Shown piece after piece: positions 53,147-55,020 of a DNA stretch of 64,000 nt. This stretch comes from Bacteroidia bacterium. GTDB lineage: Bacteria > Bacteroidota > Bacteroidia > Bacteroidales > CAJPTX01. The position numbers and the translations under genes were made by a program. Position 1 is the stretch's first letter. Every line of letters starts with the position of its first letter. The stretch is from NCBI GenBank assembly GCA_002749065.1, contig PDTX01000006.1:21519-85518 (forward strand), read 5' to 3'. The notes beneath the pieces were generated by a model. The model saw nothing but the letters and a program-made list of their open reading frames with translations, did not search any database and was not told where the DNA came from.

Positions 53147-54295
53147 ATGACGAAGGACATAAATCAGAGCAAATACCACCCTTCCACTGTACAGAAATTG
53201 GAAATCCTCAAACTGTACTTCAGGGAATGGCTACCCGTCATGCTACTCAGCTACTGTAATGTGGCAGTCTACGATTTTTTCGCGGGCAGCGGAACAGATG
53301 CAAAGGGGATGCTCGGCTCCCCCTTACTACTTTTGGAGGAGGCCAAGGCCTTGCTGAATGGAATCACTTCTCAGCTGGGAGGAAAACGTCTTCACTTCCT
53401 GTTTAATGATAAGGATGAGACCAAATGCGCCCAACTTGAGAGAAGCGTGCAGGAGGCCCTACGTAGCGATGGTACTGCGGCTTGGAGCCACTATATGAAC
53501 GAGGGGAACTATACGGTTAAAAGCTCTGCCTTTAGGGATCTGTTTTTTGATGATACGGTGCAGAAAACGCTCAATAGCAAGGATATTGCGAAGTTCGTTT
53601 GGCTGGACCAGTATGGGGTGAAGGAGCTTACTCCGGATGTTTTTCACTGCCTGCTGCGAGCACCGGTGACCGATTTTATGTTTTTCATCTCTTCCTCAAC
53701 AATTAAGCGCTTTAAGGATGAAAAATCATTTAAACGCTACCTTGCGACCGAGAAAATCCATTTTGAGGATAGTGCGCACAAGGAATGCCATAGAATCATT
53801 GCAGAGTACTATCGAAGCTTGGTGCCAACTGATGTGAATGAATGCTATATACATGGTTTTACACTACAAAAGGGATCGAATTACTATGGATTGATATTCT
53901 GCTCTAACCATACGCTGGGGATGGAGAAGTTTCTGAAAGTTTGTTGGGAAGTTGACGATTTGGCAGGTGAGTCGAATTGTAATATCAATAATGATTTCCT
54001 ACCAGGCCAACTGTTTCATGACCCACAAAGGACAGCTCGAATGGAGGCGACACGCTTAGCGATAAGCCAAGCTATCTTGAAAGGCGAAATCCGAACTAAT
54101 TATCAGGGTCTTGTGTTTGCTATGCGAAGAGGATGTAGGCCAGCCATCTTTGTTGAGGTGATAAAAAAATTGAGAGTTGCGGGTAAGGTGTTTATCGAGG
54201 AAGGGGGTTATAACGAGCGATCAACAGGTATACATCGTCTAAATGCTGAAGGAAAAGTATACGAAATCAAGCTACTATGTCCACCACAAGAATAG
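53147..54295 (+). CDS. tcmP: Three-Cys-motif partner protein TcmP
   Basis: 382 aa from ATG 53147; a TTG at 53114 would add 11 residues. Methyltransferase-like Rossmann features: SAM motif I VYDFFAGSGTDAKGMLGSP at about 41-59, then LHFLFNDKDETKCAQLER (acidic motif II) and FVWLDQYGVKELTPDVF (motif IV-like D-Q-Y-G). The fold and the neighbour identify TcmP (TIGR04474 type), defined as the partner of the three-Cys-motif protein encoded next. GC is only about 42% (25/60 at 53761), far below the core. Overlaps the partner gene by 19 nt. Function not known to me. Confidence 0.85.
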   Translation: MTKDINQSKYHPSTVQKLEILKLYFREWLPVMLLSYCNVAVYDFFAGSGTDAKGMLGSPLLLLEEAKALLNGITSQLGGKRLHFLFNDKDETKCAQLERSVQEALRSDGTAAWSHYMNEGNYTVKSSAFRDLFFDDTVQKTLNSKDIAKFVWLDQYGVKELTPDVFHCLLRAPVTDFMFFISSSTIKRFKDEKSFKRYLATEKIHFEDSAHKECHRIIAEYYRSLVPTDVNECYIHGFTLQKGSNYYGLIFCSNHTLGMEKFLKVCWEVDDLAGESNCNINNDFLPGQLFHDPQRTARMEATRLAISQAILKGEIRTNYQGLVFAMRRGCRPAIFVEVIKKLRVAGKVFIEEGGYNERSTGIHRLNAEGKVYEIKLLCPPQE

Positions 54296-55020
54296 AATGG
54301 ACCGAGCGAACCTGGAATCCCATAACCGGTTGTAGCAAGGCCTCTGCGGGTTGCCAATTCTGCTACGCAGAGGTCATGGCGCGCCGCCTCCAGGCCATGG
54401 GGCTTCAGAAGTATGCCAATGGCTTTACGCCTACCCTGCATCCTGCCTGCCTCGATGAGCCGAGGGCATGGCGGAAACCCTCAACCGTGTTCGTCTGCTC
54501 CATGAGCGATTTGTTCCACCCCGAGGTTCCCTTCGATTTTATCAATCGGGTGATGGATACCATCTGCGAAACGCCGCAGCACACCTACCAGATTCTGACC
54601 AAGCGCGCCGCTCGGATGGAGGAGTATTTCAGCATCCGTCAGGCCCCGTCCAACGCATGGCTGGGGGTGACGGTAGAGAATCGGGAGGCTAAGGAACGAA
54701 TAGACCATCTTAGAACCCTAGAGGCCTCCGTACGCTTCCTCTCGTGCGAACCCCTGCTGGAGGACCTCGGAGAGCTGGAGCTTGCCGGGATTAGCTGGAT
54801 TATTGTGGGGGGGGAGAGCGGGGCGCAGGCCCGCAGAATGCGCCCGGAATGGGCCGTCGGTATTAGGAAGCAGGCGGAGGCCCATGGTATCCCCTTTTTC
54901 TTTAAGCAATGGGGGACATGGAGCGCAGCGGGCGAGAGGGGGAGCAAGAAGGCGAATGGGCGGATGCTCGAGGGGCGCCTCGTGCAGGAGCTCCCCTCAT
55001 CGCTGAGCCTGGCCATTTAG
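54277..55020 (+). CDS. Three-Cys-motif DUF5131 (phage Gp37/Gp68) family protein
   Basis: 247 aa. IEWTERTWNPITGCSKASAG then CQFCYAE: Cys 19, 26 and 29 form C-x6-C-x2-C, a radical-SAM-like cluster site. Further family features are STVFVCSMSDLFHPEVPFDF, YQILTKRAARM, WLGVTVENREAKERIDHLR, CEPLLEDLG, WIIVGGESGAQARRMRPEW and FFFKQWG. TIM-barrel Fe-S enzyme of unknown substrate. Start overlaps tcmP by 19 nt, so the two are co-translated. Confidence 0.9.
   Translation: MSTTRIEWTERTWNPITGCSKASAGCQFCYAEVMARRLQAMGLQKYANGFTPTLHPACLDEPRAWRKPSTVFVCSMSDLFHPEVPFDFINRVMDTICETPQHTYQILTKRAARMEEYFSIRQAPSNAWLGVTVENREAKERIDHLRTLEASVRFLSCEPLLEDLGELELAGISWIIVGGESGAQARRMRPEWAVGIRKQAEAHGIPFFFKQWGTWSAAGERGSKKANGRMLEGRLVQELPSSLSLAI

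Follow-up and report, generated by a model that had tools for sequence, protein, structure and literature searches.

A TcmP/DUF5131 gene pair of a Bacteroidia bacterium: exchange of TcmP beside a near-constant DUF5131 and a possible role in anti-phage modification

Introduction

PDC entries of the PADLOC database are candidate defence systems put forward by 'guilt-by-embedding', as described in PMC10855318. Here we analysed a gene pair, TcmP and DUF5131, in a 64,000 nt stretch of DNA from a Bacteroidia bacterium (contig PDTX01000006.1; the whole stretch is hereafter called the window). The pair is a member of the PADLOC candidate PDC-M30, since its two neighbouring genes match one model each: TcmP matches PDC-M30A (E value 1.5e-100), and DUF5131 matches PDC-M30B (E value 4.2e-109) and PDC-M41B about equally, both with E values of about 1e-109. 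The B part seems to be common to PDC-M30 and PDC-M41 and the A part to differ between them, which is what swapping would lead one to expect. Both are candidates by position only. The window pair lies outside any restriction operon. An earlier note on this DNA had described the two genes as an uncharacterised system; searches of open PubMed Central (PMC) text returned no functional study of the pair, but it had already been catalogued by PADLOC as a candidate. The family pairing proposed in the same note was borne out, TcmP scoring 116.2 bits against TIGR04474 (curated cut-off 53) and DUF5131 345.2 bits against PF07505 (curated cut-off 28.9).

Several described settings invite comparison. In a set of 100 Pseudomonas aeruginosa strains, 32 were predicted to carry PDC-M30, and 68.8% of these 32 were phage-resistant according to PMC10855318; this correlation is weak because resistant strains held more systems overall. 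In Sinorhizobium meliloti, a table in PMC12445080 places a TcmP gene beside the defence gene hna. The neighbourhood of the integration/immunity cassette is a site of prophage defence genes, as PMC5559632 describes, and the defence genes 43 and 44 of phage CarolAnn are co-expressed with the phage repressor, as PMC6426606 reports. We tentatively read the TcmP/DUF5131 pair as an anti-phage modification cassette with a constant DUF5131 and a replaceable TcmP that would choose the nucleic-acid target, a reading whose chance falls somewhat short of even.

Results

TcmP is replaced beside a near-unchanged DUF5131 both in phages and in restriction loci. The phage set comprised eight temperate Gordonia phages out of the ten different phage names that the 15 best matches contained (Pytheas and WelcomeAyanna were omitted); 49 Gordonia records matched in all. 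Their DUF5131 proteins are 92-100% identical, and their TcmP proteins fall into four classes, Easley/ThankyouJordi (97%), Fairfaxidum/Jablanski (51%), Angelique/Bosnia (88%) and PantheRoc/BaxterFox (100%), with 18-27% identity between classes, where values below about 25% come from global alignment and are rough, here as in the locus pairs below. All eight proteins score as TcmP (59-174 bits), although by our motif patterns the PantheRoc/BaxterFox class contains neither TcmP motif and Fairfaxidum lacks motif IV. At the DNA level, DUF5131 aligned and TcmP did not in all five comparisons, the end of the alignment falling within a span from 22 bases short of the DUF5131 3' end to 2 bases past it. 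It restarted within the repressor gene in Fairfaxidum-Angelique and Angelique-BaxterFox and only further on in two other comparisons, while in Jablanski-ThankyouJordi a 106-base repressor stretch matched an unnamed Jablanski gene.

In these phages a metalloprotease gene is followed by DUF5131, which faces TcmP, with the integrase gene slightly further away. TcmP adjoins the immunity repressor gene on the same strand in seven of the eight; in Jablanski, two unnamed genes follow TcmP. This position, adjoining the integration/immunity cassette, is that described for prophage defence genes. It also resembles that of CarolAnn 43/44, a RexAB-type system, in that TcmP stands next to the repressor gene on the same strand, but the protein families differ.

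Exchange of the same kind was found in chromosomes. TcmP was at most 35% identical in 32 of 96 locus pairs (which share loci and are not independent) whose DUF5131 proteins were at least 80% identical; these identities, the identities and spacings of the 99 related pairs below, and the counts below of upstream partners in the phylum sample and of hsdS-like genes behind DUF5131 depend on our own gene caller. In loci L188 and L193, DUF5131 is 95% and TcmP 19% identical. In L180/L181 and L222/L224, DUF5131 DNA is 81-82% identical with the alignment beginning at the DUF5131 start codon, the genes on both outer sides align at 73-83%, the hsdS-like gene aligns partly and TcmP not at all. In these loci, therefore, TcmP changes in full and hsdS in some stretches. 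Size and position mark the outer genes as hsdR-like and hsdM-like. Pfam identified hsdR in both L042 and L184, together with hsdS in the former and hsdM in the latter. Clustering groups the L042 hsdS with its hsdS-like counterparts in L180, L181 and L222. In L181, three additional genes separate TcmP from the hsdR-like gene.

HsdS exchange in type I restriction systems likewise combines a constant engine with a part that can be exchanged. The likeness is one of behaviour, not of membership: TcmP has a predicted methyltransferase fold and the pair is without a nuclease. TcmP would take the place of HsdS as the part exchanged to alter specificity. In a broader form, which we regard as possible but doubtful, this would be a new principle of phage defence: one constant radical S-adenosylmethionine (SAM) enzyme would serve an open set of interchangeable methyltransferases, each directed to its own nucleic-acid site, and bacteria and temperate phages would alter specificity by exchanging the methyltransferase gene alone, in the way that type I systems exchange HsdS.

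Furthermore, the two genes are closely linked. Among 68 genome loci found by the TcmP profile, DUF5131 lies directly downstream on the same strand in 59; two others have a convergent DUF5131, four are at a contig end, and three have room but no DUF5131. In 96 of 99 related pairs the genes overlap or lie no more than 10 nt apart, and the two proteins co-diverge (Mantel r 0.35, a value reached in none of 999 permutations; 0.50 in the 56 closest), mean pairwise identity over the 99 pairs being 57% for DUF5131 and 30% for TcmP. The viral sample consisted of the best 80 of at least 586 loci plus L170, which was found through TcmP; of its 73 loci with a called DUF5131, 23 including L170 also hold TcmP, with TcmP first in 13, DUF5131 first in three, and the genes convergent with overlapping tails in seven. 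Linkage that persists through rearrangement argues for joint function.

The dependence is one-sided, TcmP seldom occurring without DUF5131 and DUF5131 often without TcmP. TcmP was present in six of 60 related genomes, adjoining DUF5131 in five of them, and DUF5131 in 17 of the 60; in a phylum sample, DUF5131 occurred in 88 of 395 genomes. Excluding 17 fragmentary matches and the window itself, 79 places were fetched from this sample, four of which (L179, L225, L230, L242) yielded no DUF5131 with the gene caller. In 62 of the 79, DUF5131 scored at least 250 bits and had a same-strand upstream gene at most 160 nt away. By single-linkage clustering, this gene was TcmP-like in 46 of the 62, including five short or broken frames (L176, L184, L192, L200, L211). 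Of the 16 other upstream genes, the two compared with Pfam were assigned to DUF2326/ABC-3C (L191) and DUF1828 (L194). In the 60-genome set, DUF5131 without TcmP stands behind RloB-type genes in L075 (Pfam) and L078 (similarity to L075) and directly behind an Abi_C gene in L072. The partners in L072, L075, L078 and L191 suggest that other defence partners may exist.

One-sidedness of this kind bears on two other explanations. DUF5131 might make a diffusible product, e.g. a modified SAM or nucleotide, which unlike TcmPs use as donor or substrate; TcmP would then need DUF5131, and DUF5131 would stay constant since the product it makes never varies. Close gene coupling would be unneeded in such a scheme, and we consider it unlikely. 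Alternatively, TcmP could be a methyltransferase whose modification is toxic unless DUF5131, as a remedy, removes it or keeps it from being made, the solo DUF5131 genes carried by phages then serving as counter-defence. TcmP would again depend on DUF5131, but a single, constant DUF5131 would need to be the remedy for TcmPs just 18-27% alike, and TcmP precedes DUF5131 in most bacterial loci, while antitoxin genes more often come first. This second explanation appears rather improbable.

Solo DUF5131 genes occur in mycobacteriophage TChen (L283) and in 50 viral loci, often near DNA methylase, sliding clamp or recombination genes. The 122 neighbour proteins considered (of 140) included three N6/N4 and two C5 DNA methylases, a sliding clamp, RusA and replication genes; among 25 of 43 neighbour families listed, and with no control set, no clear partner emerged.

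Three further observations concern the arrangement of the pair. In L034 and L038 (about 10001-13020), one DUF5131 lies between two unlike TcmPs, one in the same operon and one convergent; a single DUF5131 engine may serve both. L081-L088 hold a second DUF5131 class, which scores 121-163 bits with PF07505 and 79-111 bits with our own profile; no TcmP was found in the short sequences flanking these genes. TcmP is split into two frames in L048, L056, L059, L060, L184 and L192, mostly beside a full-length DUF5131, which may reflect gene decay or phase change.

Structure prediction suggests what the two proteins may do. The predicted fold of TcmP is nearest to RlmJ and Trm1, with which it shares no sequence match and from which it differs in its motif IV D-Q-Y-G and an added C-terminal domain. 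In motif I, D43, F45, G47 and G49 are conserved in 98-101 of 103 diverse TcmPs, and in motif IV D154 is present in 103 of 103, many relatives having D-P-F/Y-G. The C-terminal domain, little covered by the fold comparison, whose matches mostly span residues 2-282, is probably winged-helix-like, as inferred from the order of its helices and strands. For DUF5131, a radical-SAM barrel fold is predicted, in line with the radical-SAM likeness put forward in the earlier note: the nearest fold is spore photoproduct lyase, and the first 30 comparison rows are all radical-SAM enzymes. The canonical C-x3-C-x2-C is absent from DUF5131, which has C-x6-C-x2-C instead, with all three Cys invariant in 70 aligned sequences; spacings other than the canonical one occur in the radical SAM superfamily. 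Cluster binding and SAM cleavage by DUF5131 are presumed. Spore photoproduct lyase itself has a first Cys spacing of x3, and it shows no sequence match to DUF5131. Against TIGR04471, the radical SAM mobile pair protein A model, DUF5131 scored 105.5 bits where the cut-off is 355, which makes it a distant relative at most.

A cassette of these two proteins could work as follows. TcmP would bind a particular RNA or DNA and act on an exocyclic base amine, DUF5131 would add a radical-generated change to the same nucleotide, and this modification, or the toxicity arising from it once infection triggers it, would halt phage growth. That spore photoproduct lyase, the enzyme nearest to DUF5131 in predicted fold, acts on DNA argues against a diffusible product; the lyase is also a repair enzyme, as a remedy for TcmP toxicity would be.

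The defence link drawn in the earlier note appears likely for the family. The genes nearest to DUF5131 in 30 loci with or without TcmP (four per locus, 120 of 150 listed) were compared with 120 genes from other parts of the same contigs. They matched 235 families, as opposed to 84 in the control; among the 25 families listed per set, restriction families near DUF5131 had up to seven members (type IIG seven, type I methylase six, type I specificity five), whereas in the control mad2 (three) was the sole family with more than one member and none was a restriction family. Both families were matched by their HMMs, and the two genes proved neither rarely adjacent nor without enrichment near defence genes, so that none of the outcomes that the note had named as telling against its proposal came about. 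An hsdS-like gene stands behind DUF5131 in 17 of 82 loci with a close same-strand downstream gene; in three of the 17 (L189, L191, L207) the upstream partner is other than TcmP.

Shared travel could produce such company, too. The pair might be mobile-element cargo with another use (metabolic, regulatory or selfish), as would suit the occurrence of DUF5131 on 399 of 72,556 plasmid records (and on 157 of 50,697 phage records), the integrase and insertion sequences beside the pair in pCAR1, the transposition genes near it in a Methylobacter plasmid, and the ordinary neighbours of the window pair. Travel alone hardly explains that the pair sits inside type I operons, that it repeatedly lies by the immunity repressor, or that TcmP is replaced in loci where hsdS changes too; we hold this explanation to be unlikely. 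In the Methylobacter plasmid locus (L285, 913-9049), genes for TnsA, a DDE transposase and TniB lie slightly upstream, a few genes from the pair, which is ordered DUF5131-TcmP and looks as if it were cargo of a Tn7-like element.

In the window itself, both genes are intact (Table 1), and the source genome (74% complete) contains one match each to the TcmP and DUF5131 families. The open frame of TcmP begins at 53114 (TTG); since most of 29 aligned relatives begin at the motif found at 53147 (ATG), the latter is taken as the start. This start, the motifs, the Cys spacing and the gene overlap, all given in the earlier note, were recovered in the sequence or in aligned relatives.

Table 1. Positions in the window of the TcmP/DUF5131 pair, its motifs and its flanking genes
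Feature	Position	Strand	Basis
TcmP, class I methyltransferase-like, 382 aa	53147..54295	+	TIGR04474 116 bits; PDC-M30A E 1.5e-100
DUF5131 (Gp37/Gp68 family), predicted radical-SAM enzyme, 247 aa	54277..55020	+	PF07505 345 bits
TcmP/DUF5131 gene overlap, 19 nt	54277..54295	+	sequence
TcmP motif I D-F-F-A-G-S-G, residues 43-49, presumed SAM site	53273..53293	+	
TcmP motif IV L-D-Q-Y-G, residues 153-157, presumed catalytic site	53603..53617	+	
TcmP C-terminal helical domain, residues about 297-376	54035..54274	+	predicted secondary structure
DUF5131 Cys motif C-x6-C-x2-C (C19, C26, C29), presumed [4Fe-4S] ligands	54331..54363	+	
Composition step, guanine-cytosine (GC) content 0.47 to 0.61 over the gene boundary	54200..54350	.	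sliding GC
Cyclase-family gene, flank of the pair	52348-53097		
4Fe-4S protein gene, flank of the pair	55490-56356		

The pair had been described as AT-rich and acquired in appearance. This holds mainly for TcmP, whose GC content of about 44.7-44.8% is the lowest of all stretches of the same length (100-base steps) in a window of 64.7% GC. DUF5131 has 59.8%, so that strong AT-richness is a property of TcmP alone; the change in composition coincides with the gene boundary near 54300. Because of this seam we infer that the window TcmP came later than its DUF5131. The GC gap of 15.0 points is reached by one of 99 pairs, and the third-position gap by two of 99, L193 and L181, both swap cases. Against a later arrival stands that TcmP is generally AT-rich, on average 6.6 GC points lower than DUF5131 over the 99 pairs, and that two of the 99 loci exceed 55% GC, leaving few comparable genomes. 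In an empty-site comparison with one same-genus genome, the contig stopped within the cyclase gene and the other flank was not found.

The restriction-enzyme remnant reported beside the pair was not found. No recognisable gene occupies the roughly 470 bases that separate DUF5131 from the 4Fe-4S gene (55021-55489): two open frames there had no Pfam match, and tblastn of genes from the collected loci gave self-matches only. No hsdM, hsdS or hsdR was seen beside the pair by Pfam in the gap, tblastn or PADLOC (25 of 62 matched families listed). In the PADLOC search of the 79 other window frames, the cytosine-methylase families, among those listed, match one frame each. A likely DNA cytosine methylase with an E-N-V motif is encoded at 14900-16351 on the minus strand, about 37 kb from the pair, and is most likely the frame matched.

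Discussion

Exchange of TcmP beside DUF5131 and the repeated position at restriction and prophage immunity loci lead us to the tentative reading of an anti-phage modification cassette with a constant DUF5131 and a target-choosing TcmP. Two points weigh against it. The one-sided dependence of TcmP suits a diffusible product and a toxin-remedy pair at least as well, which is why we hold the reading no more firmly, and the neighbours of the window pair are ordinary, as judged by Pfam and by PADLOC with 25 of 62 families listed.

New here are the constant-and-swapped design and the fold assignment; neither partner swapping nor the position at the prophage immunity locus had been observed in the earlier note. 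The pair is common, yet we found no biochemistry for it, and the swapping makes a testable design out of what was an anonymous candidate. To learn which half sets specificity, TcmP genes can be exchanged beside one DUF5131, an exchange that related laboratory phages already carry. If true, the proposed reading would bring radical-chemistry modification into immunity and provide another example of exchangeable aiming parts on a constant engine.
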